64,000 bases of DNA from Oscillospiraceae bacterium (lineage in GTDB: Bacteria > Bacillota > Clostridia > Oscillospirales > Oscillospiraceae), in assembly GCA_902774015.1 (NCBI GenBank), contig CACYHB010000014.1, forward strand, positions 1-64,000, given 5' to 3'. Position numbers and translations under genes: made by a program. Numbering within the stretch: position 1 is the stretch's first letter; every line of letters begins with the position of its first letter. A model generated the notes under the pieces. It ran no database searches, was not told the origin of the DNA, and was given only the letters and a program-made list of their open reading frames with translations. Shown here one piece after another: positions 49,750 to 64,000 of the stretch.

Positions 49750-50673
49750 ATGAAAAAAGTGATAGCGACGGCGCTTGCCGTCTGTGCGCTGAGCGCCGCG
49801 GCGCCCTGTGCGGCCCATGCTCAGGGGCTGGAGCTGGGCGGGCAGATCGTAGGGATCCAGATCAGTACCGAGGGCGTGCTGGTGGCGGGCACCGGCGCGG
49901 TGGAGACCGCGGAGGGGAGCGCCTCTCCTGCGGAGGAGGCAGGTGTGCGCCGCGGGGACGTGATCGTGGAGCTGGACGGGAAAAAGGTCAGCAGCGCCGG
50001 AGAGCTGATCGGCGCGGTGGAGGCCCTGCAGGGCGAGAGCGCGGAACTCACGGTGCTGCGCGGCGGGCGTCCCCTGCTGCTCACGGTGAAGCCCGCCCGG
50101 TCGGACGAGGATCAGTGGATGCTGGGCATGTGGCTGCGCGACGGGATCTCCGGGATCGGCACGCTCACCTTCTATGATCCGGCCACCGGCCTCTACGGCG
50201 CCCTGGGCCACAGCATCAGCGACGCGGACAGCGGCGCTGTGCTGCCGATGGACGAGGGCAGCATCACCGAGGCGGAGATCGTCTCGGTCAAGCCGGGAGC
50301 TGCGGGCGTCCCCGGGGAGCTCAACGGCTGCGCCGATCTGGGCAGGGTCCTGGGCAGCATCGAACACAACACCGAGCACGGCATCTACGGGCACATGAAC
50401 CGCCCGGCCGGCGGCCGCCCGGTGGAGACCGGCGAGATCCGCACCGGCCCGGCCACCATCCTGGCTACGGTGGACGGGACAAACACGCGGGAGTTCTCGG
50501 TCCGTGTCAGCCGCATCTACCGGGACAGCGACGGGGAACACGTGATGCTCAGCGTGACCGATCCCGAGCTGTGCTCCCGCACCGGCGGCATCGTGCAGGG
50601 GATGAGCGGCAGCCCGATCCTGCAGGACGGAAAGCTGGTGGGCGCGGTGACGCATGTGTCAGTATCAACATGA
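49750..50673 (+). CDS. spoIVB: SpoIVB serine peptidase, 5' part, interrupted by a mobile element
   Basis: 307 residues as it stands. An N-terminal signal/anchor (1-25) precedes a PDZ domain (SPAEEAGVRRGDVIVELDGKKVSS, ~58-115) and the S55 peptidase. The catalytic His is in GALGHSISD (H154) and the Ser in GMSGSPI (S288). SpoIVB is secreted from the forespore and triggers sigma-K processing. The reading frame is normal to GAVTHV (50658), then switches into the element and ends after SVST. The usual C-terminus (FLSDPKRGYGISIRDMLDDA) lies at 59923-60006. Catalytic residues remain, so the truncated form might retain some activity. Confidence 0.93.
   Translation: MKKVIATALAVCALSAAAPCAAHAQGLELGGQIVGIQISTEGVLVAGTGAVETAEGSASPAEEAGVRRGDVIVELDGKKVSSAGELIGAVEALQGESAELTVLRGGRPLLLTVKPARSDEDQWMLGMWLRDGISGIGTLTFYDPATGLYGALGHSISDADSGAVLPMDEGSITEAEIVSVKPGAAGVPGELNGCADLGRVLGSIEHNTEHGIYGHMNRPAGGRPVETGEIRTGPATILATVDGTNTREFSVRVSRIYRDSDGEHVMLSVTDPELCSRTGGIVQGMSGSPILQDGKLVGAVTHVSVST
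50644..50659. mobile_element. attL of the spoIVB intervening element
   Basis: GCGGTGACGCATGTGT, identical to 59908-59923. The flanking bases differ (C and C here; T and T at the right), so the shared core is exactly 16 bp. The codons spanned (Ala-Val-Thr-His-Val) are the same in both copies. Confidence 0.92.
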
Positions 50674-50752
50674 TACCCACCGAAAAACCAGGCGTTTCCT
50701 CACACGAAATACATAGTCACGATCAAAATAGCGAGAATACGGAAAAAAGCAA

Positions 50753-50782
50753 CAAGAGCGCGGCGGTCAAGCTGCGCTCTTG
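50753..50782 (+). terminator. Hairpin ahead of the repA-like gene
   Basis: CAAGAGCGC-g-GC and GC-t-GCGCTCTTG, a stem with a six-base loop and no T run, 20 bases before the repA ATG. Such hairpins precede replication initiator genes in clostridial elements and may be attenuators. Confidence 0.55.
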
Positions 50783-50801
50783 CTGCGTCTAGGGAGGTTT
50801 T

Positions 50802-51152
50802 ATGACGGATTTGCGCCCTCAGAGCGAGGGCTTTTCTTATTACCGGGTTCCCCGGCAGCTTGTCAAAGGAACGGAGTACCGCCCGCTGTCGCCCGCTGGG
50901 AAGCTCCTGTTTGCCCTACTGCTTGACCGCGTGAGCCTGTCCGTCAAGAACGGCTGGCGGGACGGGGAGGGCCGGACGTATGTGTATTACGCGATTGCGG
51001 AGATTTGCGAAGACTTCGGCTGCAGCCGCGTCACAGCCGGGAAGCTGCTCTCGGAGCTGGAGTGGATCGGTCTGATCGAGCGCAAAAAGCAAGGCCAGGG
51101 CAAGCCGGATCGGATTTATGTCCTGCAATTTTGCGCCAAACCGGACTTCTAG
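50802..51152 (+). pseudogene. Replication initiator RepA-like, N-terminal domain only (probable nonsense truncation)
   Basis: 116 residues from ATG 50802 with GGGAGG site. The winged-helix DNA-binding domain typical of RepA_N initiators is complete: FSYYRVPRQLVKGTEYRPLS, AKLLFALLLDRVSLS-type (GKLLFALLLDRVSLS), TYVYYAIAEICEDFGCSRVTAGKLLSELEWIGLIERKKQGQGKPDRIYV. The frame stops at TAG 51150, but translation beyond it (TSQKETSRLPLSRSLEVK) still resembles the linker of full-length RepA, and a further stop follows. This points to a recent nonsense mutation. The truncated domain could still bind DNA. Confidence 0.6.
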
Positions 51153-51350
51153 ACTTCCCAAAAGGAAACTTCTAGACTTCCGCTTTCCCGAAGTCTGGAG
51201 GTTAAAATCTTTTACATCAAGAAGCCAAAAACTTATGCCCTAATAAGACTGATGGAAAGAAACTGATCAAATTATACTGAGGGATCTATCCATCTATCTA
51301 TCATTACTGCTAATCTCCGCGCCGAAAGCAGAAGTCTGAAACCTGAAATG

Positions 51351-51367
51351 TGTCTCACCGTGAGACA
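51351..51367. repeat. Element palindrome P1
   Basis: TGTCTCACCGTGAGACA: eight-base arms around a single C, followed by AGTTTTTC. Located after the repA remnant. First of seven related odd-length palindromes in the element; it can act as a terminator for the upstream gene. Confidence 0.85.
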
Positions 51368-51459
51368 AGTTTTTCTTTCGTGGGGATGCTTTATCCAATG
51401 TGCCACGGGTTCCGGCGGGTTCCGGCAAGTATAGCATTTGTTAAACACAAACGCCCTTG

Positions 51460-51478
51460 TTAGGGGGAAGCCCCCTAA
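51460..51478. repeat. oriT-like hairpin 1
   Basis: TTAGGGGG aag CCCCCTAA, preceded by ACGCCCTTG. A close relative lies at 57300-57316. G/C-rich hairpins of this form adjoin transfer origins of mobilisable elements in Clostridia; assignment as oriT is inference. The rest of 51153-51618 carries P1 and an AT-rich promoter region for the NACHT gene, without other genes. Confidence 0.5.
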
Positions 51479-51618
51479 GACCCAATCATTGTTCCTTTGC
51501 TTCTGGAATTACACATGCTAGGAATTGTAGAAAAACCTTTTCGCAATGACATTTTTATGGTATTATTTGTTTTAGAAACGCAAAGGAAAACCTTTTTTGC
51601 CGAGTGGAGGAAATACTA

Positions 51619-53460
51619 ATGGGTGAGATAAATACAATGTCTTTTGATGGTGAAAAAATCGCAGCCGATGTAGCGACAAGCATAATTAAAGATACTGTTT
51701 CCTCAGGATGGGAGAAAGTAAAAAAATACTTTCGAGATCTCGATGCAAAACAAGCTATAAAATACGGTGTCGCATACCATAAATATCTATCTAACACAGA
51801 GGATAAGTTTGGGAAGATTAAGACAATAATATATAGAAAGATTCCAAAAGAGTTATATTCTTTTTATGAATGTACTGATGTTGAACACGAAGGAAAACGA
51901 ATTAGTACAGCAAGTGTGGAAAACGTTTTGGCACTATCAAATAAAATAATAGTTAGCGGAACTGGTGGAATAGGAAAATCGATTCTTTTCAAGCACTTAT
52001 TTCTTAATACCATTGAAACAACGGAGTATATACCTATTCTAATTGAATTAAGGAAGTTTAATCCTGTTGATATCAAAGATATTTGTTTAGAGGATGCGAT
52101 ATTTCAAACCCTCTGTGAGAACGGATTTGACCTAGATCGAGAGTACTTTAGTTATAGCATGAAAGAAGGCGGATATATAATTCTGTTAGATGGATTTGAT
52201 GAGGTCAGCAGAGAAAAATCAGAAAAAGTTACATCTGAAATAAAGTCATTGTGCGATAAATACTCTGGGAACAAATATCTTCTGTCATCAAGGCCGACAG
52301 ATAGGTTTATTGGATGGAATGATTTTACTGAAGTATCAGCATGTAAGCTTACAAAGCAGCAAGCGTTAAGCCTTATCAAAAAAATAGACTTTGAAGAGCC
52401 TGTTAAAACAATTTTTTACAAAGCTCTTGACGAGTATTTGTTTGACAAATATGAATCTTTCGCCTCAAACCCGTTGCTTTTAACGATTATGCTCCTCACT
52501 TTCAGTAATCATGCTTCTATTCCAGATAAGCTAAATGATTTCTATGAAGCGGCTTTTTTAACGCTTTTCAACATGCATGATGCGACAAAGGATTGTTATA
52601 TAAGAGATATCCGATCTAAACTAGGGAGCGAAGACTTTAAATCGGTATTCGCGTATGTTTGTTTCAAGTCGTACTTTTCAAGTGAATATGAGTTTTCCGA
52701 AGCAGCATTGAGAAGCTATATTCAAAAGGCCAAAGACAAGTTCAATTATTTAGATTTTTCTGTGGACGATTTTCAGGAAGACCTAATCCTCTCTGTATGT
52801 ATGCTGGTGAAAGATGGAATTAATTACCGCTTTACACACAGGTCTTTTCAGGAATACTTTGCAGCTTGGCATACATGCAAGATCACAGACGAACAGCAAA
52901 GCAAATTGCTGACAGCGTGGATTTCGGAATCAAGTGCGTCGGTTCGAGATGGATATCTTGAAATGCTGTTTAACATGCAGGCAGAAAAAGTAAATAGAAT
53001 AATATTTGTCCCAGGAATACAAAAACTGAAAGAACTGCATGAGGCAAACGGTTATTCTCTCAAGTATTTATCAAAACTTTTTTCAGCAATCCATACAAGC
53101 AAGCACACTTTTAAAACTGGAGAGCAGAAGCTAGCATTATCATTAGCAGTAAAGGACAACTATCTTTGTAATATTGTTCGTTGTACTTGTAGATGTAATA
53201 ACTACAAATATGGCCAACAAGGCGCAGACGCTATCCAGTTTGAAAACGATATTGCGGAAAAGCTTATTAATTCAAAGAATGGATCCTTCACAGAACACTC
53301 GCTTGAAGACGCAGCAACATTGGTTGGCGAAGAGAATCTTCTCAAAGCAATAAGTTGGTTCGAGTTACAATATGAGTTCTGCATCATGATTCTCGATCAA
53401 AACAGCTCAAAAGACTATATTTACAAGAAAAAGGTGTCTTCAATTATCAACGAATTATAA
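51619..53460 (+). CDS. NACHT-domain NTPase, possible antiphage (NLR-like) protein
   Basis: 613 residues from ATG 51619 (GGAGGA site). A short N-terminal alpha region (1-100) precedes the NACHT/STAND ATPase: Walker A VSGTGGIGKSILFKHLF near 118, Walker B YIILLDGFDEVSRE near 192, then KYLLSSRP sensor and the winged-helix part ending RFTHRSFQEYFAAW near 415, a motif typical of NACHT proteins. The ~190-residue C-terminus has no recognisable repeats. Codon use is AT-rich, unlike the host and the other element genes, indicating separate acquisition. Bacterial NACHT proteins can be antiphage sensors; that role here is inference. Confidence 0.85.
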   Translation: MGEINTMSFDGEKIAADVATSIIKDTVSSGWEKVKKYFRDLDAKQAIKYGVAYHKYLSNTEDKFGKIKTIIYRKIPKELYSFYECTDVEHEGKRISTASVENVLALSNKIIVSGTGGIGKSILFKHLFLNTIETTEYIPILIELRKFNPVDIKDICLEDAIFQTLCENGFDLDREYFSYSMKEGGYIILLDGFDEVSREKSEKVTSEIKSLCDKYSGNKYLLSSRPTDRFIGWNDFTEVSACKLTKQQALSLIKKIDFEEPVKTIFYKALDEYLFDKYESFASNPLLLTIMLLTFSNHASIPDKLNDFYEAAFLTLFNMHDATKDCYIRDIRSKLGSEDFKSVFAYVCFKSYFSSEYEFSEAALRSYIQKAKDKFNYLDFSVDDFQEDLILSVCMLVKDGINYRFTHRSFQEYFAAWHTCKITDEQQSKLLTAWISESSASVRDGYLEMLFNMQAEKVNRIIFVPGIQKLKELHEANGYSLKYLSKLFSAIHTSKHTFKTGEQKLALSLAVKDNYLCNIVRCTCRCNNYKYGQQGADAIQFENDIAEKLINSKNGSFTEHSLEDAATLVGEENLLKAISWFELQYEFCIMILDQNSSKDYIYKKKVSSIINEL

Positions 53461-53482
53461 TAGTGCGCTGGCTTAACTTTTT

Positions 53483-53517
53483 ACAAAAATCCGTTTCATC
53501 ATGAAGCGGGTTTTTGT
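53483..53517. repeat. Element palindrome P2 (terminator-like)
   Basis: Core CGTTTCATCATGAAGCG (53492-53508) in a 35-base dyad with ACAAAAA at the left and TTTTTGT at the right, directly after the NACHT gene. Works as a bidirectional terminator by appearance. Confidence 0.85.
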
Positions 53518-53518
53518 A

Positions 53519-53547
53519 TTGCTATTGTGCGTACAAAAGAGTATAAT
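53519..53547 (+). promoter_or_regulatory. relBE promoter
   Basis: TTGCTA (53519-53524), 17-base spacer, TATAAT (53542-53547), about 40 bases before the antitoxin start. Type II antitoxins usually repress such promoters. Confidence 0.75.
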
Positions 53548-53587
53548 AGTCATGGAAGCAAAACTGCCATGAAAGGAGTGCTGCAAC

Positions 53588-53893
53588 ATGGCCAAGACTG
53601 CAAATCTGTATGCGCGCATCGAGCCGGAGGTCAAGGATCAGGCAGAAAGCATTTTGGAGGCACTGGGCATCCCCGTCTCCAACGCGATCAATATGTTCTA
53701 CAAGCAAATCATTCTCCAGCGCGGAATCCCCTTTGACGTGAAGCTGCCCGCCTTCCCCGTACCTGACATGAGCGAGCTCACGAAGGAACAGCTGAAAGCG
53801 GAAATCGAGAAGGGCTTTGCTGACGCTGCTGCCGGGCGCGTGACGCCGGTTGCTGACGTGTTTGCCGAGCTGCGGGAGGAATACCGCGTATGA
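53588..53893 (+). CDS. RelB/DinJ family antitoxin
   Basis: 101 residues: MAKTANLYARIEPEVKDQAESILEALGIPVSNAINMFYKQIIL, the RelB/DinJ ribbon-helix-helix (DNA-binding, dimer-forming). The C-terminal half, rich in Glu/Lys/Ala, should wrap the toxin. GAAAGGAG site upstream; the stop overlaps the toxin start (ATGA). Confidence 0.93.
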   Translation: MAKTANLYARIEPEVKDQAESILEALGIPVSNAINMFYKQIILQRGIPFDVKLPAFPVPDMSELTKEQLKAEIEKGFADAAAGRVTPVADVFAELREEYRV

Positions 53894-54219
53894 GCTATGT
53901 GGTCGAAATGACCGACCAGGCCAAGACGGATCTCCGCGGCATCTACGAGTATATCGCCTTTGCGCTGCAATCCAAAATCAACGCAGACCGCCAGTTGAAT
54001 CGCATTGAGCGGGAGATACTGTCCCTGTCTGAGCTTCCGGAGCGATACAAAGTCCTCGACCTGGGCTTTGAAGCGGCCAAGACGGTACGGATGGTAGCGG
54101 TTGACCGCTACTGCGTGATCTATCACGTTGCGAAAGAGCGCGGAGCGGTACAGATCCTCCGTATTCTTTATGGCGGGCGCGATATCCCGACAGAGCTGGA
54201 GAAAGACATGAACCCATAA
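53890..54219 (+). CDS. RelE/ParE family toxin
   Basis: 109 residues: MSYVVEMTDQAKTDLRGIYEYIAFALQ, LPERYKVLDLGFEAAKTVRMVAVDRYCVIYHVAKE and VQILRILYGGRDI, the RelE/ParE superfamily pattern. Whether it is an mRNA endonuclease or a gyrase poison is not decidable; the VRMVAVDRYCVIYHV form is common in both. Likely stabilises the element. Overlaps relB by four bases. Confidence 0.92.
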   Translation: MSYVVEMTDQAKTDLRGIYEYIAFALQSKINADRQLNRIEREILSLSELPERYKVLDLGFEAAKTVRMVAVDRYCVIYHVAKERGAVQILRILYGGRDIPTELEKDMNP

Positions 54220-54295
54220 TCCGTTTCATGGTGAAACGGATTAACAACCGAATAGCAACAAACCGGAAATGCGTTTCAGCGTGAAACGCATTTCC
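54217..54295. repeat. Element palindromes P3 and P4 (pair)
   Basis: P3 has core CGTTTCATGGTGAAACG (54222-54238) in a 27-base dyad with TAATC/GATTA ends, 8 bases past the toxin gene. P4 has core CGTTTCAGCGTGAAACG in a 31-base dyad (54265-54295) with GGAAATG/CATTTCC ends, followed by TTTTTTC ahead of mobC. The two are adjacent copies of the same design. Confidence 0.85.
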
Positions 54296-54313
54296 TTTTT
54301 TCATGGAGGGGTT

Positions 54314-54622
54314 ATGAGAGAACGCAATCATTTTATCGGCCTTTGGCTGAACGACGAGGAATACACCCATCTAAGGGAGCAATGCGAGATTACGGGCTTG
54401 CCGACTAGCGTGCTGATCCGTCATGCCATCGAAGGGGTACAGCTCACGCATCGGCCGCCTAATGAATACGCGGGCCTGCCGCGGGCGCTGTCGTCCATCG
54501 GCAACAACGTCAATCAGATCGCCCATTGGGCCAACGCCAAAAAGAGCATCCAGGAGGCAGAGATCCAGCAGACGGTTCTGCTGGCAAACAAGGCGTGGGA
54601 GTTGGTAAAGGAGACGTTGTAA
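54314..54622 (+). CDS. mobC: Plasmid mobilisation relaxosome protein MobC
   Basis: 102 residues from ATG 54314 (GGAGGGG site). MRERNHFIGLWLNDEEYTHLREQCEITGLPTSVLIRHAIEG forms a ribbon-helix-helix, and LSSIGNNVNQIAHWANAKKSIQ is the MobC signature (family NNlNQiArwAN). MobC helps melt oriT for a relaxase. No relaxase follows, in contrast to intact elements. Confidence 0.92.
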   Translation: MRERNHFIGLWLNDEEYTHLREQCEITGLPTSVLIRHAIEGVQLTHRPPNEYAGLPRALSSIGNNVNQIAHWANAKKSIQEAEIQQTVLLANKAWELVKETL

Positions 54623-54625
54623 ATG

Positions 54626-54642
54626 TGTCTTACCGTGAGACA
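54626..54642. repeat. Element palindrome P5
   Basis: TGTCTTACCGTGAGACA, directly behind the mobC stop, followed by GGTTTTGA. One mismatch in the arms. Confidence 0.82.
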
Positions 54643-54797
54643 GGTTTTGACCGAGCTTCTGATGTCACTCAAAGCTCAAGCTCTTCTTATTTGCGCTGTC
54701 GTGATACAATAAAGAAAAAACCTTTCCTGTTTTTGTGACACTTTGCTCAAAAAATGGATTTATATAAGTGAGGGCCCTTAAACAAAGGAGACGAGGT

Positions 54798-55370
54798 ATG
54801 AACGACAGAGATATAGTCAATTTATACTGGCAGCGTTCAGAGCAGGCCATAGCGGAAACCGAGCGGAAATACGGGAGTTACTGCCACATCATCGCATATA
54901 ACATCCTCGAAAACAGCGAAGATTCCGAGGAGTGCGTCAATGATACTTGGATGAGCGCATGGAACGCGATGCCGGACAAGCGCCCGGATCGGCTTAGCCC
55001 CTTTCTTGCCCGGATTACACGCAACTTTGCTCTGACAAAGATCGTCCGCCACACGGCAAAGAAACGGGGCGGCGGTGAAGCAGAGCTTGCGCTGGAGGAG
55101 CTGGACGAGTGCCTATCCTCCGGCTACGATCTGGAAAAGGAAATTGAAGATCGAGAACTGAGTCGCGCCATTGACGCATTTATCGGACAGCTCGGTGAAG
55201 AAGAACAGCTTGTGTTTGTCAGCCGGTATTGGTTCGTGGCGACCGAGCGGGAGATTGCGGAAAAGCTGGGCCTGAGCCGCAGCGGCGTCGCCGCCATGCT
55301 GAAACGGACAAGAGGCAAGTTGAAGACATACCTGTTGATGGAGGGTTTATGTACAATTCGGAACGAATGA
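54798..55370 (+). CDS. ECF-like sigma-70 family RNA polymerase sigma factor
   Basis: 190 residues from ATG 54798 (AGGAG site). Region 2 is DSEECVNDTWMSAWNAMPDKRPDRLSPFLARITRNFALTK near 45-85; region 4 is LGEEEQLVFVSRYWFVATEREIAEKLGLSRSGVAAMLKRTRGKLKTYL near 140-185. A DUF4179 gene overlaps its end and is the usual partner, probably its anti-sigma. Its targets are unknown; it might autoregulate this module. Confidence 0.9.
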   Translation: MNDRDIVNLYWQRSEQAIAETERKYGSYCHIIAYNILENSEDSEECVNDTWMSAWNAMPDKRPDRLSPFLARITRNFALTKIVRHTAKKRGGGEAELALEELDECLSSGYDLEKEIEDRELSRAIDAFIGQLGEEEQLVFVSRYWFVATEREIAEKLGLSRSGVAAMLKRTRGKLKTYLLMEGLCTIRNE

Positions 55371-56419
55371 TGAAAGCCATTGGAGACATTTCCGATGATA
55401 AGATCGAGAAAACCAGCCGCGCGCTGGGTTATCAAAAAGAGAGACACAGCATGTCTCACGCCCCCGTTCGGATGGGGAGATTGCTGTCCATTGCTGCGGT
55501 GGTTGCGCTGATCCTCGCTCTGGGTGTGACGGCCTACGCAATCTATACGCACTGGTCGCGAGGCATGGAGCAACGACTTCCCGCCACGGAGGAAGAAAAA
55601 GAACTGGCAGAGCAGAGCGGCCTGTCCGACACTTCCCAGACTGTCAGCGCAACAGCCAACGGCGTGACGATTTCAGTGGAGCAGACGATCATCGATGGAG
55701 ATTCCGCCGAGATTGCCCTGCGGATCGAGGGCTGGCAGCTTGACCGGGAACAGGAACTTGACGCCGCCGTTTGGGGCTGGATGCCTACCTTCAACGGAGA
55801 AGGCGCGCCTGCGATGGGCGGCAGTTTCGTGGAAGATCGCGACGCGAATGACCGTGTTTTCATTATTGCGGCTGACGGCTCGATGGAATTCGATATCTGG
55901 GCCAGAGCAGGAGACAAGCTAGGTACACTTTCCGGAAAAGAAATCCGTATTTGCATTGAAAGTTTAGGCGTTGGCGGTCTTAAAAGCGAGTATCAGCCGT
56001 TGGTGGAAGGCCCCTGGGAACTCGTATGGACACCCAGTAGCAACAGCGAACTGCTGACCGTACAGCCTGACGCAGACCTCGGTGATACCGGGATCAAGCT
56101 GATTTCCGCGGAGGTCGGCCCGATTTCTGCGAAGGTGGCGCTACAGCTTCCCGAACTCTGGGAGGGCTACGAAACCTTGGAGCACCACGACCTCCAACTC
56201 GTGGGCGTGCGGCTGACAGACGGGACGGTGCAGACCAACATCTTTGGGCCGCCCACGCAGGAGGGCTACGCGGATATTGACAATTTGATCCTTGAGCTGA
56301 ACTACTCTTCGCATCAGATCCTCCGGCCGGAGCAGGTGGAGGCACTGATCTTTGCCAGCAACTTCCCCTGGGCGAGAACATTGACAGACATCGATCTGAT
56401 CATTATTCCAATCAAATAG
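55349..56419 (+). CDS. DUF4179-type membrane protein, probable anti-sigma factor
   Basis: 356 residues from ATG 55349 (GGAGGG site), overlapping the sigma gene by 22 bases. A cytoplasmic N-terminus (1-45; MYNSERMMKAIGDISDDKIEK) precedes one membrane helix (LLSIAAVVALILALGVTAYAIYT) and a DUF4179-like extracytoplasmic region with TVSATANGVTISVEQTIIDGDSAEIALRIEG. Such pairs with ECF-like sigma factors occur in Clostridia; anti-sigma function is inferred from the arrangement. Confidence 0.82.
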   Translation: MYNSERMMKAIGDISDDKIEKTSRALGYQKERHSMSHAPVRMGRLLSIAAVVALILALGVTAYAIYTHWSRGMEQRLPATEEEKELAEQSGLSDTSQTVSATANGVTISVEQTIIDGDSAEIALRIEGWQLDREQELDAAVWGWMPTFNGEGAPAMGGSFVEDRDANDRVFIIAADGSMEFDIWARAGDKLGTLSGKEIRICIESLGVGGLKSEYQPLVEGPWELVWTPSSNSELLTVQPDADLGDTGIKLISAEVGPISAKVALQLPELWEGYETLEHHDLQLVGVRLTDGTVQTNIFGPPTQEGYADIDNLILELNYSSHQILRPEQVEALIFASNFPWARTLTDIDLIIIPIK

Positions 56420-56425
56420 TAAGTA

Positions 56426-56632
56426 GTGGAACACACAGAGATCATGATCATTGAACAAGAACGAAAGTCATTATGGCTCCCATGCCCAAAGTGCGGTGCC
56501 AGGACGAAGATCAAAATCTATGAGGACACTGTACTTCTGAATTTTCCTTTATACTGTACCAGATGCAAGGAAGAAACCAAACTCGGCGTGATAAAATTTA
56601 AGATCGTAGTTAGCGACGAGCCAGACGCTTAA
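56426..56632 (+). CDS. Cysteine-rich KTR domain protein
   Basis: 68 residues (GTG 56426; ATG 56444 alternative). The core WLPCPKCGARTKIKIYEDTVLLNFPLYCTRCKEETKLGVI contains two Cys pairs (CPKC and CTRC) of a small zinc ribbon. KTR-domain proteins are typical accessory genes of Tn916/Tn1549-like elements, of unknown role. A strong terminator follows. Confidence 0.85.
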   Translation: MEHTEIMIIEQERKSLWLPCPKCGARTKIKIYEDTVLLNFPLYCTRCKEETKLGVIKFKIVVSDEPDA

Positions 56633-56637
56633 AGCGC

Positions 56638-56677
56638 AGAGCCTGCTACTCCGTGAGTGGAGAAGCAGGCTCTTTTT
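56638..56677 (+). terminator. Terminator after the KTR gene
   Basis: AGAGCCTGCT ... AGCAGGCTCT followed by TTTTT, with an inner ACTCC/GGAG pairing. Confidence 0.85.
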
Positions 56678-56891
56678 ATCGTTATGGGCCATTCAGCACT
56701 GGCGTTTTCGCTTCCCACGCACGGGCTGTTGAAGAAAAGGGGTTGAAAAGCTGCTGGTTTGACCTAATCGGTGAGATTCAACACGGCTGCTATAGTTTCG
56801 GTTTCATGTTAAATCGGCTACTGCCTACATTCAAAAGCGAAAAGATAGTATTGCTTATTTGAGCTACACATTCAGAGAGCGGAGGACAGAT

Positions 56892-57263
56892 ATGTACAGC
56901 TTTCATTCTGAAAACAAAATATCCGGCGTTGCGCCGGAGGAGATCGGGAGGCTGCTCCGCAGCATCGGCGCTTCCGGGCGGCTGGTCGGGTTCCACTACA
57001 CCGTCTATATCGTGTATCACATTTTGCAAAAGCCGGACGAGTATTTCTGGATCACCAAATGCGCCTATCCGGAAACGGCCCGGTATTTCAAGGTCAGCAC
57101 GTCCTCCGTGGAGCACGCGATCCGCACGCTGATCGCTTCGACGTGGAATCGCCGCGATCATTCCGATCTCAACCGTGTGGCCGGGATCGAACTGGAGAAG
57201 CCGCCCACCAACAGCGAGTTTATCGATATACTGGTCGCCTATCTCCGCTACGGCTTGGATTAA
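56892..57263 (+). CDS. Spo0A C-terminal DNA-binding domain protein (no receiver domain)
   Basis: 123 residues from ATG 56892 (GGAGGA site). IGRLLRSIGASGRLVGFHYTVYIVYHIL, TKCAYPETARYFKVSTSSVEHAIRTLIASTWNR and PPTNSEFIDILVAYLR align with the Spo0A sigma-binding/helix-turn-helix domain (family YPeIAkkfnttps-VERAIRHAIE and kPTNSEFIA). The phosphorylatable receiver is absent, so binding would be phosphorylation-independent if dimerisation permits. Such genes are found on clostridial mobile elements. Here it sits in an element that splits a sporulation gene. It may bind 0A-box-like sites on element or host. Confidence 0.87.
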   Translation: MYSFHSENKISGVAPEEIGRLLRSIGASGRLVGFHYTVYIVYHILQKPDEYFWITKCAYPETARYFKVSTSSVEHAIRTLIASTWNRRDHSDLNRVAGIELEKPPTNSEFIDILVAYLRYGLD

Positions 57264-57316
57264 TCCGTTTCACCGTGAAACGGATTTTCGCGTCGGGTGT
57301 TAGGGGGCGCCCCTAA
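57262..57316. repeat. Element palindrome P6 and oriT-like hairpin 2
   Basis: P6: AATCCGTTTCAC c GTGAAACGGATT (57262-57286), a perfect 12-bp stem overlapping the stop of the Spo0A-domain gene, followed by TTCG. Then TTAGGGG gcg CCCCTAA (57300-57316), like the hairpin at 51460. Confidence 0.82.
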
Positions 57317-57996
57317 ATGCGGCGTTTGTACTATCAAATGCCATACTTGCTTATAACACGCGGCTTCTGTCGAGAAACGGATAAAAGAATCAGACAAGAT
57401 AGTATGCGTTCCGTACTTTCTCAAACGAAAAGAAGCCACTTTTCCCGATGCTTGCGGTAAAATGGTGTTAAACCAAATAGAGCTGGCAGATACAGTGACG
57501 CTGAACGGAATCAACTGTCCGGCTATAAGCGCGGGAAGAAATCTGCCGCAAACGATTTCTTTTTGTCGCGGCTTGACTTCTTTTGCGAATTTTCGTTTTT
57601 TCTGTGCCTGATTTTGTTTTAGTTCTATGAAGGGAAAAGGAATCCTTCCCAGAAAACCGAATAGGGCAGGCAGATACGTTCTGCTTGCGGGGAGCCGGAC
57701 AGCGGGTGCGCCAGGATGCCGATCAACCGGGAAGTGAACAGATCAGGGCTGAGCGAGCAACACCGCGCTGTTAGCAGTTTATGGGCTGACTGAGGGCCAC
57801 GATCCGCAAGCGGAGATAATGATACCTACGTTGATGGCACGTCACAGAGTCAAACGTCCCGCCATGAGCATGGAGGGAGGCACAAAACGATCCTACGGAG
57901 CGGCCCGCCCCGCCGCCGTCTGCCCCTCGCCTTTGAAAAACCGTGAACCTTACGATCCGCACTACACAAGAGTGCGGATTTTGTCTTTTATAGTCG
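57317..57996. other. Gene-poor segment between the Spo0A-domain gene and P7
   Basis: About 680 bases without a gene I can support. Contains an AT-rich block near 57550-57630 and a GC-rich tail. A relict frame near 57717 (MPINREVNRSGLSEQHRAV) and the block ending CCTTTGAAAAACCGTG resemble eroded coding or relaxase-upstream sequence of clostridial elements. ATCCGCAC ... GTGCGGAT (57953-57979) is a hairpin. This is where a relaxase or transfer gene may have been lost. Confidence 0.5.
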
Positions 57997-58023
57997 AAAT
58001 GTGTTTCACGGTGAGACACATTT
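57997..58023. repeat. Element palindrome P7
   Basis: AAATGTGTTTCAC g GTGAGACACATTT with one mismatch pair, followed by TTC. Last of the seven, just ahead of the short ORF and recombinase. Confidence 0.85.
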
Positions 58024-58080
58024 TTCATACCCATTTTTGCCATACTAAACCATATCGCCACACGAAAGGAGCGGGAGCCT

Positions 58081-58260
58081 ATTATCGTTTCCACGATCAA
58101 GAACGAAAACGCCGTGGTGCAGATCCACGACGATTATATTGAGGATATCGACGAAAACGCGGCGCGGGTGAAGGAGATCCTGACGAAAGCCCGGAAACGC
58201 CGCAAGGCGGCAGCCAAGCCCACAGCCGCACAACGAAATTCTTGCGCGCCGCAGCTATGA
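58081..58260 (+). CDS. Small acidic/basic protein with possible ATT start
   Basis: 59 residues (VSTIKNENAVVQIHDDYIEDIDENAARVKEILTKARKRRK core). The ribosome-binding site AAAGGAG lies 9 bases before ATT 58081, and no ATG or GTG follows until mid-gene. Either a non-standard ATT start is used or the original start codon was mutated. The acidic centre (DDYIEDIDENAARV) and basic helix (KARKRRKAAAKP) look like a real protein. Related small ORFs precede recombinase genes on clostridial elements, in my recollection. Confidence 0.45.
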   Translation: MIVSTIKNENAVVQIHDDYIEDIDENAARVKEILTKARKRRKAAAKPTAAQRNSCAPQL

Positions 58261-58297
58261 TCTGCGGCGCTTGCCATAAATTGCCACGTCCGAAAAT

Positions 58298-58326
58298 TTG
58301 ACAGGCTTTCCCCGATTTGAGATAAT
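58298..58326 (+). promoter_or_regulatory. Serine recombinase promoter
   Basis: TTGACA (58298-58303), 17-base spacer, GATAAT (58321-58326). A sigma-A-type promoter; no convincing sigma-E/K/G motif was found in front of the gene. A hairpin GCGCCGCAG ... CTGCGGCGC (58246-58270) precedes it. Confidence 0.75.
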
Positions 58327-58347
58327 ATCGACAGAAAGGAGGCCCCC

Positions 58348-59889
58348 ATGGAGCAATATATCGAATATCTCCGTAAATCTCGCTTTGACCGTGACTATCT
58401 GGATTTGAGTGTGGAGGAAACGCTGAAACGGCACCAGGAGATCCTGGACAGACTGGCGAGAGACAGAGGATTCTATATTGCGAAGGTGTATCGGGAGGTC
58501 GTGTCCGGCGAGTCTATCGCCGCCCGGCCCGAGGTACAGAAGATGCTGGAAGAGGTCTCTTCCGGGATCTATACCGGGGTGCTCGTTGTCGATGTGGAGC
58601 GTCTGGCCCGCGGCAACAGCGCGGATCAGGCATATATCAGCCAGATCTTTCAGTTTTCCGACACCAAGATCATCACCCCCGCCAAGACCTACGACCCGAC
58701 AGACGAATTCGACCAGGAGTATTTCGAGTTTGGCCTGTTCATGAGCCGGAGGGAATACAAGACGATCAACCGACGCCTTGTCAGAGGGCGTCAGAGCTCC
58801 GCCAGTGAGGGGAAATACGTCGGCAGCATCGCACCCTATGGCTACGACCGGGTGAAGCTGCAGGGCGAGAAGGGGTATACCCTTGAGCCCAACCCTGCGG
58901 AGGCGGAGGCTGTGCGGCGGATGTTCGAGCTGTACGTCCGGCGGCAGGGCACGAAGATGATCGCCAATGAGCTGAACGACCGCAAGATTCCCACGCGGCA
59001 CGGCGGGAAGTGGGACGCCTCGACGGTTGGCAACATCCTCATAAACCCCGTCTATCTGGGCAAGATCAAGCGCGGCTATGTCAAGGAGACCAAGCACCTG
59101 GACGAGAGGGGCAACGTGGTGTCCAGCTACAGGCACTGCAAGGACGTGGAGGACTACGATCTGTACGAGGGCCGCCACCCCGCGCTGATCGATGACGCGC
59201 TCTTTGAGAGGGCGCAGAAGATCCGCAAGGAAAACTACGTGGGGCCAAAGGTGAAAATGCAGTACGAGCTTGTCAACCCCTTCGCCGGGGTGATGGTCTG
59301 CGCCGAGTGCGGAAAGCCCATCGGCCGCAAGGTGTCCTCCAAGAACCACCCCAACCCGCCCCGCGTGGCCTGCACCAATCCGCATCACTGTCACAACCGC
59401 TCCGCGAGCTTTGCGCTGGTGGAAGCGGAGATACTGAACGCGCTGCGGAGCTGGCTGGACGGCTACAGGATCAAGCTGGACACCGTGGGCTTCGCGGAGG
59501 ACATTGTGGACTGTCGGCGGCAGCTGGAACGGATCGAAGCAGAGAGGGAGAAGCTGAAAGCGCAGCTTGACCGGGCCTACACGCTGGTGGAGCAGGGCGT
59601 CTACAGTCTGGAGGTCTTCGGGGAACGGCGCGACAAGCTGACGCGAGAACTAACAAAGCTGCAAGAGCAGCAGGACGCCGCCGAGCAGAGCCTGGCGCGG
59701 TTTGAGGCCGACGAGAGCAGCCAGCAGGAGATCATCCCCCAGACGGAGACGCTTCTGGCCAGCTACGACGACATGACCGTACAGGAGCGCAACGAGCTTT
59801 TGAAGACCATCCTTTACAAGATCGAATACTACCGGGGAGAGGACGGGATCGTGTCGATTGACCTGTATCCGAGACTTCCCAAGGTATAG
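58348..59889 (+). CDS. Large serine recombinase (SpoIVCA-like)
   Basis: 513 residues from ATG 58348 (AAGGAGG site). The resolvase domain has catalytic Ser in YLRKSRFD (S11), ARPEVQKMLEEV and VVDVERLARGN near 85. The recombinase domain is GSIAPYGYDRV ... AEAVRRMFELYVRR ... NDRKIPTRHGGKWDASTVGNILINPVYLGKI. A zinc ribbon (CAEC near 321 and CTNPHHC near 345) and a long coiled coil (400-460) complete it. It is the probable integrase/excisionase acting at attL and attR, 18 bases from attR. Confidence 0.94.
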   Translation: MEQYIEYLRKSRFDRDYLDLSVEETLKRHQEILDRLARDRGFYIAKVYREVVSGESIAARPEVQKMLEEVSSGIYTGVLVVDVERLARGNSADQAYISQIFQFSDTKIITPAKTYDPTDEFDQEYFEFGLFMSRREYKTINRRLVRGRQSSASEGKYVGSIAPYGYDRVKLQGEKGYTLEPNPAEAEAVRRMFELYVRRQGTKMIANELNDRKIPTRHGGKWDASTVGNILINPVYLGKIKRGYVKETKHLDERGNVVSSYRHCKDVEDYDLYEGRHPALIDDALFERAQKIRKENYVGPKVKMQYELVNPFAGVMVCAECGKPIGRKVSSKNHPNPPRVACTNPHHCHNRSASFALVEAEILNALRSWLDGYRIKLDTVGFAEDIVDCRRQLERIEAEREKLKAQLDRAYTLVEQGVYSLEVFGERRDKLTRELTKLQEQQDAAEQSLARFEADESSQQEIIPQTETLLASYDDMTVQERNELLKTILYKIEYYRGEDGIVSIDLYPRLPKV

Positions 59890-59907
59890 AACCGCTGTCG
59901 TCATCAT

Positions 59908-59923
59908 GCGGTGACGCATGTGT
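59908..59923. mobile_element. attR of the spoIVB intervening element
   Basis: GCGGTGACGCATGTGT, the second copy of the core. It lies within ATGCG gtga CGCAT, a small dyad created by the element side (TCATC to the left). Confidence 0.92.
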
Positions 59924-60006
59924 TTCTGTCCGATCCCAAGAGGGGCTACGGGATCAGCATCCGGGACATGCTGGACGACGCCGGCGTACTGGACGAAGCG
60001 GCATAA
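59923..60006 (+). pseudogene. spoIVB: spoIVB 3' end, separated by the mobile element
   Basis: 27 codons after the core: FLSDPKRGYGISIRDMLDDA, then GVLDEAA and TAA. Together with the 5' part they give ...GAVTHVFLSDPKRGYG..., the canonical SpoIVB C-terminus (B. subtilis has GAVTHVFVNDP). It has no start of its own, so it is only translated after excision. Confidence 0.93.
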
Positions 60007-61142: not shown

Positions 61143-64000
61143 ATGTTAGGAATCAACATGAACGACGTCTACACAACGATCGGCCTGCTGAAAAATTACC
61201 TTATCGGCATCGGCGTTGTGCTGGCGCTGGCAATCGTTCTGACGATCGTCGCAGTCAAATTCAAAAAGCCGCTCAAAAAGCTCGTGCGCAGCAGCGCGTG
61301 GATCGCCTGCCTGCTGATCGTTGCGCTGATCGTCAACGCGATCCTGATCGGCCCGATGTACAGCATGGTCAGCATGGTCTTCAGCAACGGCGGCGACATC
61401 TCCGAGCAGAGCATCACCAAAGCGCAGGATCTGTGCGAGCAGATCGCGGACGAGGGCTTCGTGCTGCTCAAGAACGACGGCCTGCTGCCGCTCTCGGGCG
61501 ATGTGAAGCTCAACACCTTCGGCTGGTCCGCCACCAACCCGGTCTACGGCGGCACCGGTTCCGGCTCCCTCTCCGGCCTGTATGAGACCGTCAGCCTGCT
61601 CAAGGGCCTGGAGAACGCAGGGATCTCGTACAACGAGGATCTTGTGCAGTTCTACACCGACTTCCGCAGCGCCCGTCCCGGCATCGGCATGATGGGTCAG
61701 GACTGGACGGTTCCCGAGTGCACCATCGCGGATTACGAGAGCGCCGGCATCTTTGACAACGCCAAGGCCTTCTCCGACACGGCGATGATCGTGCTCGCCC
61801 GTTCCGGCGGCGAAGGCGCCGACCTGCCGAAGAGCCTCGATCCCAACGTTCCGGATACTTTCAACGACGACGGCAACGGCACCATGTTCAGCCAGACCGG
61901 CCTTCGCTTCAGCGAGTATCCCGAGGATCTGGACGCCTCCAAGCACTACCTTGAGCCCACCACCCGTGAGCTTGCGATGATCGACCGCGTCACCAGCGAG
62001 TTTGACAAGGTCATCGTCGTCATCAACGCCTCCAACGCCATGGAGCTCGGCTGGGTCAACAGCTACCCGAGCATCAAGGCGGTCATCCTGGCCCCCGGTC
62101 CCGGCCAGACCGGCTTCAACGCCCTGGGCAATATCATCACCGGCAAGGTCAATCCCTCCGGCCGCACCATCGACACCTTCGTGGCGGACCTGACCGCGAC
62201 CCCCTGCTTCAACAACATCGGCGAGTTCCAGTACACGAATCTGGCGGACGTGTCCCCCATGAGCTACGGCTTCCCCGTAACGCCGAACTTCGTCAACTAC
62301 GTGGAGGGCATCTACGTCGGCTACCGCTGGTATGAGACCGCGGCGGCGGAAGGCGTGATCGACTACGACAAAGAAGTGGTCTATCCCTTCGGCTACGGCC
62401 TGAGCTACACCAGCTTTGAGCAGACGATGGGCGAGATCAGCGAAAAGGACGGCGTCCTCTCCTTTGACGTGACGGTGAAGAACACCGGTGACGTCGCCGG
62501 CAAGGACGTGGTCGAGGTTTACTACAATCCTCCCTACACCAACGGCGGCATTGAAAAGTCCGCCGCCAATCTCGTGGCCTTCGCCAAGACCTCCGAGCTC
62601 AAGCCCGGCGCAAGCGAGACCGTGAAGATCTCCTTCAGCGCGGAAGACATGGCCTCCTTCGATTACCGGGACGCCAAGGCCTACGTGCTCGATGCGGGCG
62701 ACTATGAGATCTCCATCAACAGCGATTCCCACAACAAGATCGACTTCAGGATCTACACCGTCGACTCCAAGGTGGTATTCGGGGAAGACAACAAGCGCGA
62801 GAGCGACCAGACCGCGGCCGTCGCCCTGTTCGACTACGCGGCGGGCGACCTGAATTACCTCTCCCGTGCCGACCGCTTTGCCAACTACGAGGAAGCCACC
62901 GCAGCGCCCACCGACTTCGAGATGAGCGATGAGGCGAAAGCGGGCTTCTATAACCACACCAATTACGATCCGACCCAGTTCAACAACCCGGACGACGTGA
63001 TGCCCGCGACGGGCGCGCAGAACGGCCTGAGCCTGACCGACCTGCGCGGTAAGGATTACGACGATCCCCAGTGGGACGCCCTCCTTGACCAGCTGACGGT
63101 TGACGACATGGTGAACCTGATCGGCGTCGGCGGCTACCAGAGCGTTGCCGTAGCTTCCGTCGGCAAGACCCAGCAGGTCGACTGCGACGGCCCCGCCTCC
63201 ATCAACAACAACTTCACCGGCAAGGCCTCCATCGGCTTCCCCGCCGGCGTTGTGATCGCGGCCACCTGGAACACCGATCTTGCCAAGGAATTCGGCCGCT
63301 CCATCGGCCAGATGGCCGACGAGATGGACGTCTCCGGCTGGTACGCGCCCGCCATGAACATCCACCGCTCCGCCTTTGCCGGACGTAACTTCGAGTACTA
63401 CTCCGAGGACGGCTTCATCTCCGGCAAGATGGCCGCCAACGCGATCCTCGGCGCAGCCGAGAGCGGCGTCTACGCGTTCATGAAGCACTTTGCCATGAAC
63501 GACCAGGAGACCCACCGCACCGATATGCTCTGCACCTGGTCCAACGAGCAGGCCATGCGCGAGATCTACTTCAAGCCCTTTGAGATCTCCGTCAAGGAAG
63601 GCCACTGCAGTGCCGTCATGTCCGCCTTCAACTACATCGGCAACAAGTACGCGGCTGCCACCACCGAGCTGCAGAACACCGTTCTGCGAGGCGAATGGGG
63701 CTTCCGCGGCATGGTCCTGACCGACTACTTCGGCGGCTACGGCTATCAGGATGCGGATATCCTGATCCGCAACGGCAACGACTTCTGCCTCACCCCGCAG
63801 GCGACCGACTTCTCCAAGGTCAGTGACACGACCAGCGCCACCTCCGTGCTCGCGATGCGCCAGGCCAGCAAGAACATCCTCTACACGACTGCCAACAGCC
63901 GCGCCTACGCCAGCGGTCTGAACGGCGGCGCCGCCAAGTGGGAGATCGTCAAGAACGTGATCCTCGGCGCGGTGATCCTGCTCTGCGCTCTGCTGGAGTT
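61143..64000 (+). CDS. Glycoside hydrolase family 3, domain-permuted and membrane-anchored (partial, runs off the right edge)
   Basis: At least 952 residues. Two membrane helices (LLKNYLIGIGVVLALAIVLTIVAV and SAWIACLLIVALIVNAILI) open the protein. The usual order is reversed: first the GH3 C-terminal sandwich (DEGFVLLKNDGLLPLSGDVKL near 100), then fibronectin-III-like (YPFGYGLSYTSFEQ, NTGDVAGKDVVEVYY), then the catalytic barrel (GKDYDDPQWDALLDQLTVDDM ... GFRGMVLTDYFGG, nucleophile D861). A third helix (WEIVKNVILGAVILLCALLE) is cut by the edge. It probably hydrolyses beta-glucosides or related sugars outside the cell. Confidence 0.92.
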   Translation, partial: MLGINMNDVYTTIGLLKNYLIGIGVVLALAIVLTIVAVKFKKPLKKLVRSSAWIACLLIVALIVNAILIGPMYSMVSMVFSNGGDISEQSITKAQDLCEQIADEGFVLLKNDGLLPLSGDVKLNTFGWSATNPVYGGTGSGSLSGLYETVSLLKGLENAGISYNEDLVQFYTDFRSARPGIGMMGQDWTVPECTIADYESAGIFDNAKAFSDTAMIVLARSGGEGADLPKSLDPNVPDTFNDDGNGTMFSQTGLRFSEYPEDLDASKHYLEPTTRELAMIDRVTSEFDKVIVVINASNAMELGWVNSYPSIKAVILAPGPGQTGFNALGNIITGKVNPSGRTIDTFVADLTATPCFNNIGEFQYTNLADVSPMSYGFPVTPNFVNYVEGIYVGYRWYETAAAEGVIDYDKEVVYPFGYGLSYTSFEQTMGEISEKDGVLSFDVTVKNTGDVAGKDVVEVYYNPPYTNGGIEKSAANLVAFAKTSELKPGASETVKISFSAEDMASFDYRDAKAYVLDAGDYEISINSDSHNKIDFRIYTVDSKVVFGEDNKRESDQTAAVALFDYAAGDLNYLSRADRFANYEEATAAPTDFEMSDEAKAGFYNHTNYDPTQFNNPDDVMPATGAQNGLSLTDLRGKDYDDPQWDALLDQLTVDDMVNLIGVGGYQSVAVASVGKTQQVDCDGPASINNNFTGKASIGFPAGVVIAATWNTDLAKEFGRSIGQMADEMDVSGWYAPAMNIHRSAFAGRNFEYYSEDGFISGKMAANAILGAAESGVYAFMKHFAMNDQETHRTDMLCTWSNEQAMREIYFKPFEISVKEGHCSAVMSAFNYIGNKYAAATTELQNTVLRGEWGFRGMVLTDYFGGYGYQDADILIRNGNDFCLTPQATDFSKVSDTTSATSVLAMRQASKNILYTTANSRAYASGLNGGAAKWEIVKNVILGAVILLCALLE

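Follow-up and report, generated by a model that had tools for sequence, protein, structure and literature searches.

A family of skin-like integrative elements that splits the sporulation gene spoIVB in Oscillospiraceae

The sporulation gene spoIVB of an Oscillospiraceae bacterium (assembly GCA_902774015.1) was found to be split by an element that carries its own large serine recombinase (LSR), in a stretch of 64,000 nucleotides of contig CACYHB010000014.1 that is called the window throughout. It is one of a family of integrative elements that target spoIVB, share the anatomy of skin and are possibly excised at sporulation. With moderate confidence we regard it as an integrative, mobilizable-like element for which spoIVB is the dedicated attachment site; chiefly the element itself would then govern its excision, and spoIVB would be off in carrier cells. 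The LSR would join the attP site of the element to the A-V-T-H-V codons of spoIVB, so splitting the gene and depriving SpoIVB of its C-terminal 27 residues, and the reverse reaction would restore the gene exactly. Excision would be switched on by a small protein whose gene lies just before that of the LSR; in the closest relatives of the window this protein would be made at a low level from a non-AUG start. The features on which this account is built are the following.

49750..50673, + strand: spoIVB 5' part (head), with PDZ and S55 peptidase domains, ending in AVTHV + SVST*
50644..50659, + strand: attL core GCGGTGACGCATGTGT, encoding A-V-T-H-V
58081..58260, + strand: conserved protein of about 59 aa, candidate recombination directionality factor, aligned start ATT
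58298..58326, + strand: sigma-A-like LSR promoter TTGACA-17-GATAAT, recognized by eye
58348..59889, + strand: LSR of 513 aa, with Resolvase and Recombinase domains
59908..59923, + strand: attR core, second copy of GCGGTGACGCATGTGT
59923..60006, + strand: spoIVB 3' part (tail), FLSDPKRGYGISIRDMLDDAGVLDEAA, 27 codons (59923-60003) and a stop (to 60006)

The initial annotation of this DNA had described a SpoIVB reading frame with an abnormal end after GAVTHV, a 16-bp direct repeat at both ends of an insertion, an LSR at its right end and a 27-codon fragment completing SpoIVB after the repeat, and all four were borne out. The head matches Peptidase_S55 (E=8.4e-62, profile positions 2-196 of 210), and the last four residues of its end GAVTHV-SVST* are encoded by the element. 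Only two copies of the 16-bp core occur in the window, even with up to two mismatches (0 in 100 shuffles), and they lie 9,264 bp apart. As the core encodes A-V-T-H-V, excision between its copies would rejoin the frame; the tail is in frame with the head after the core, and the halves would meet exactly if the element were excised precisely. Judged by sequence, the element thus has the skin-type arrangement of halves that come into frame on excision and an LSR of its own at one end. The source genome, a metagenome-assembled genome (MAG), holds one full spoIVB, the sole other match being to the PDZ part only at 35% identity. The concern that insertion-free relatives might lack the tail did not hold, since uninterrupted relatives have the same tail, e.g. 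THVFLSDPKRGYGISIRDMLDDALILDEAA in genome G087. About 2 kb downstream of its intact spoIVB, the sister genome G114 matches window positions 62283-63503 (tblastx, 59% over 407 aa); it is alone in this among 66 loci, and no such match was found in the examined stretches of the other close intact sisters G087, G102 and G103.

The LSR gene and the attR core are 18 bp apart. Besides its two domains the LSR has a Zn-ribbon match just under the Pfam cut-off, and the serine of YLRKS is presumably the catalytic one; by these domains and the catalytic region it is predicted to be a large serine integrase. To cover genomes outside the genus, six LSRs were compared with 84,980 species, and the results refer to the best 80 loci, which show a gap between 56% and 44% identity. 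All 30 LSRs above the gap (56-97% identity) lie at spoIVB as judged with a SpoIVB profile, and none of the 50 at 44% or less adjoins it (L239 has spoIVB 10 kb away). Direct adjacency was seen in 28 of the 30, with the LSR beside the tail in 21 and beside the head in reverse orientation in 7; the two less clear loci are L176, whose tail is 9 kb from the LSR, and L196, where the LSR lies beside a head fragment (by eye) and the intact gene is 4.1 kb away. Five of the 30 were probably already counted in the genus set (L173, probably G042; L194, probably G016; and L172, L174 and L200, which share tails with G112 and G073/G076), leaving about 25 others. One contig of a viral collection, 42 kb long, holds an LSR at 58%. 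Among these best 80 loci the clade appears to be specialised on spoIVB, with one dedicated attB. In those of the reverse-orientation loci (L185, L186, L193, L197-L199 and L201) that were compared by eye, the distance between the conserved arm and the core seems about 4 nt longer, and a palindromic core was considered as a reason why the LSR can lie either way round at spoIVB.

The genus set comprised 102 genomes, 67 of them with SpoIVB at E <= 1e-30. We classed 68 fetched loci, of which two were left unparsed (G011, with a contig end there, and G083); the classed loci and the window gave 67 heads from 64 genomes. A search for empty sites in related genomes, as the initial annotation had proposed, found 52 of the 67 heads running on into the tail (G070 up to the contig end) and 15 split at the same codons as the window, ending in SV[PST]T* or FVRL*; G084 is counted as split, though an N gap follows its first element bases. 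Spanning both halves, single contigs from the window (G000), G062, G042 and G066 carry elements of about 9.3, 9.5, 10.6 and 12.1 kb. Close LSRs were found in 13 of the 102 genomes (E <= 1e-25) and as a contig-end fragment in G019, and each of these 14 has a spoIVB tail after it; for G003 and G019 no head was found. G076 has the LSR and tail but an intact spoIVB too, and its LSR contig, which is like that of G073, may be contamination; the flanks around the LSR are near-identical in G073:C53 and G076:C104. On two contigs of the MAG G052 (C76, C92) lie spoIVB genes that share 77% identity; one is split, the other intact. In G012, outside the 67, spoIVB is intact.

Extra copies of the spoIVB 3' end were also observed, some kb from the gene (L038 = G039, L140 = G047, L196) or on another contig (L036 = G012); by eye, no LSR was seen among the listed ORFs (open reading frames) of L038, L140 and L036, and the copies in L038 stand on either side of genes that look metabolic. 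N-terminal fragments of sigK occur in a few species (G012:C2:51492-51845, L255-L261), several ending near RLATYASRCIENAIL, and the one in G012 adjoins a spoIVB 3' fragment. They were considered as skin copies, and by eye no LSR was seen among the ORFs of the stretches examined.

The elements spread horizontally and, for the host splits examined, seem to be of more recent date than these, as hosts near-identical in spoIVB differ in their element and LSR similarity ignores host kinship. On a tree of the 67 heads the split state needs 11 changes at the fewest, at least 8 of them forced by well-supported branches, against a mean of 13.7 on shuffling (14 of 500 shuffles were as low). Nine of the 15 split heads neighbour intact ones, with 94% nucleotide identity in the spoIVB heads of G062 (split) and G109 (intact), and 97% in those of G016 (split) and G104 (intact). 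G042 and G093 are 98.4% identical in spoIVB and carry different elements. The 3' ends of 11 LSRs (a table without G016, G003 and G019) are 84-94% identical regardless of host kinship, the exception being G073/G076, where one is shared. For the cases examined this led us to reject a vertical, ancient insertion. Four heads (G066, G013, G084 and G007) form a well-supported clade in which every member is split.

Upstream of the LSR, the small protein was traced with a profile for which the window and 14 of the loci supplied the sequences (small-protein loci: L155, L157-L161 and L172-L200). Within the best 80 loci it was present in all 29 above the identity gap that have upstream DNA (L201 has none), ending 20-364 bp before the LSR; below the gap, 4 of 50 loci gave weaker matches, on the other strand. 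The ratio of nonsynonymous to synonymous change (pN/pS) is 0.08 in its frame, while the two other frames give 1.09 and 4.15; the 8 sequences compared make 28 pairs, not all of them independent. The aligned first codon (n=30) is ATG in 23, ATT in 5, ATA in one (L197) and GTG in one. Eight close sequences start with ATT, or with ATC in G062, and the window frame has no ATG, GTG or TTG in frame within 30 codons upstream; L172 and L173 have an in-frame canonical start 10 and 27 codons upstream. Position, size and a basic C-terminus suggest a directionality factor, and the rare start codon would keep it scarce.

Between its ends the element carries the following genes.

50802..51152, + strand: RepA_N replication-initiator-like protein (Pfam E=1.2e-20)
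51619..53460, + strand: NACHT + SNaCT7 protein by domain matches, variable cargo
53588..54219, + strand: RelB/DinJ antitoxin and ParE/RelE-like toxin
54314..54622, + strand: MobC/NikA mobilisation accessory protein
54801..55370, + strand: ECF-type (extracytoplasmic function) sigma factor
55379..56419, + strand: DUF4179-like protein, match just under the Pfam cut-off, partner of the sigma factor
56426..56632, + strand: Cys_rich_KTR protein
56892..57263, + strand: Spo0A C-terminal DNA-binding domain alone

Integrative and mobilizable elements of Firmicutes are small and carry MobC/NikA, RepA_N, a toxin-antitoxin pair and a recombinase at one end, all of which the window element shares. It differs from them in having no relaxase found, in its fixed target, a conserved sporulation gene, and in the small protein upstream of the LSR, for which Pfam and NCBIfam gave no better than chance matches. 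Much of the content is common across elements and the stretch left of the toxin-antitoxin genes varies (in G112 the right side too). The cargo is varied and often defence-like. A PADLOC scan of ten cargo proteins from seven elements, a selection of the cargo, matched Schlafen/AlbA-like (G066), RmrA and RmrT (G062), Fic with M78 (G042), HTH-M78 (G007), a DEDDh exonuclease with a candidate-defence match (G023) and a weak TIR (G112). Three of the ten had no PADLOC match, one each in G042 and G112 and the NACHT protein of the window, which has a weak NCBIfam match, far under the cut-off, to the NACHT antiphage protein EruA. A lone Spo0A C-terminal domain is also seen in several other spoIVB elements. 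As such proteins are present too in G012 and G030, where no spoIVB element was found, this protein was set aside as a link to sporulation. Short hairpins of the type TTTCACCGTGAAA recur by eye between the element genes (window 51353, 53496, 54220, 54622, 57262 and 57998).

Several observations weigh against the account of a spoIVB-specific mobilizable element that sets its own excision. No assembled attP was found: 7 of the 102 genomes match the attP pattern, which would miss distant elements, with 3 mismatches, all of them at attR, and viral contigs gave 0 exact matches. Two MAG contigs have LSRs that look damaged, that of G073 (C53, L160) carrying an internal deletion and a frameshift and that of G076 (C104, L161) looking chimeric with a frame change. 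In G016 (L194), of the same genus and with a more distant LSR, the small protein starts with ATG, and the role given to this protein is a guess from position, since it has no relative in Pfam or NCBIfam. The element ORFs scanned contain no relaxase, only MobC/NikA (oriT was not searched for), and mobility would therefore need a helper or be lost; the element probably moved with help.

It is conceivable, though we think it unlikely, that this is a developmental element of the skin type, with excision triggered in the sporulating forespore, where spoIVB is needed, and each spore receiving a repaired gene. The precise and reversible anatomy would suit this. The skin element of C. difficile has a constitutive LSR and takes its timing from a directionality factor made only in the mother cell (PMC5025042), and a constitutive LSR is for this reason compatible with developmental control; the window LSR has the sigma-A-like promoter listed above, and similar sigma-A-type hexamers precede most LSRs of the clade by eye. 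Some observations on the host side would agree with it as well. With G011, G070 and G083 left out, spoIVA was found in 10 of 15 split versus 40 of 49 intact genomes (p=0.29, no significant difference), and the tails are similarly constrained, with pN/pS 0.17 over 6 split-intact pairs versus 0.20 over 7 intact pairs. The motif GCACATAMTG (at most one mismatch), chosen by eye first and counted afterwards, lies within 300 bp upstream of spoIVB for split heads in 14 of 15 cases and for intact heads in 43 of 52, against 1.3% of shuffles. However, the constraint on the tail may predate insertion, because occupancy is patchy and the elements look young, and the elements have no clear enrichment of sporulation promoters. 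Sigma-F/G/E patterns showed no enrichment in 8 elements or parts. In a set of 10 elements or parts, the spoIVB-type upstream motif with at most one mismatch gave 16 matches where 11.4 were expected (5 shuffles each), one of them exact (G093); by element, sporulation-promoter matches reached 6 against 2.2 expected in G023 and 4 against 1.8 in G007. These scans are weak, as the sigma-G/F patterns find the host's own spoIVB promoter in only 0 to 1 of 67 cases; the strict sigma-factor patterns do not match GCACATAMTG. The skin-type proposal of the initial annotation thus stands as regards a site-specific LSR element, precisely reversible in principle, and remains a hypothesis as regards sporulation control: the LSR promoter looks housekeeping-type, and no sporulation promoter is clearly enriched.

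We consider it improbable that each insertion lasts only briefly and abolishes sporulation, with split genomes as dead ends that horizontal transfer constantly renews. Split heads next to intact ones in the tree, the apparent youth of the elements and the two broken-looking LSRs speak for such turnover, but the four-head clade is split throughout, the split heads contain no internal stop and the 14 tails beside LSRs keep their frame, that of G084 with a 3' extension.

Another explanation, which we hold to be doubtful, is that the truncated SpoIVB still works and the site is harmless to the host. The catalytic residues of B. subtilis SpoIVB are His236, Asp363 and Ser378 (PMC12502668), and by alignment the cut falls downstream of them, at Thr393-His394-Val395 in B. 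subtilis numbering; because they precede it, partial function of the truncated protein is conceivable. Against this, the lost tail is conserved in the alignment from this genus to B. subtilis and is constrained between intact species (the seven pairs above), and THV, reported as a PDZ-binding motif (PMC12502668), would remain near the new C-terminus. A structure prediction for an intact SpoIVB (L196) had a mean pLDDT of 40 and was not used.

Rather far-fetched, in our judgement, is a germ-line rearrangement in which excision in the forespore, whose genome is inherited, would yield cured spores with a repaired spoIVB. A directionality factor started from AUU or AUC would throttle excision in the closest relatives of the window, and phage defence and spore making would be traded off by the host at one locus; the element, in many cases together with defence genes, would persist in growing cells and re-enter later or spread sideways. 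An assembly or binning artefact, to which the quality of the source MAG (94% completeness, 5.9% contamination) and the many contigs breaking within the element might point, was rejected with near certainty, because the junctions recur in other assemblies: the halves share one contig in the window and three further genomes, and the same kind of junction is seen in public assemblies outside the genus set.

The spoIVB elements resemble skin in sigK of B. subtilis and C. difficile, where an LSR element splits a sporulation gene that precise excision restores (PMC5025042), a likeness drawn here from sequence alone. They differ in their target, spoIVB being a gene of the forespore in both of these species (PMC3789822) and sigK one of the mother cell, and their varied cargo and dedicated LSR clade point to a circulating element. 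Split sporulation genes and precise excision are likewise described for gin in gerE (PMC5595907), an element reported as not prophage-like, and SPbeta in spsM (PMC4191935); these have other target genes, and for them excision at sporulation was shown by experiment (PMC5595907, PMC4191935). The initial annotation did not recall spoIVB as a target, and our searches of the open literature, with most subscription journals outside coverage, found no report of spoIVB as the target of an intervening element or recombinase. LSR elements that split sporulation genes are a known kind, to which those splitting spoIVB appear to be an addition, and their excision may be developmentally timed.

In the carriers, spore formation may require the element to excise itself. 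If the account is true, spoIVB joins the sporulation genes that serve as landing sites, with a devoted recombinase clade in many gut and rumen Clostridia. The att sites, the recombinase and the candidate directionality factor with its unusual start codon offer material for tests in E. coli. The defence-like genes in many elements would tie phage defence and sporulation to one site, and the question is raised of how spore-formers retain a late sporulation gene that is repeatedly split by mobile DNA.

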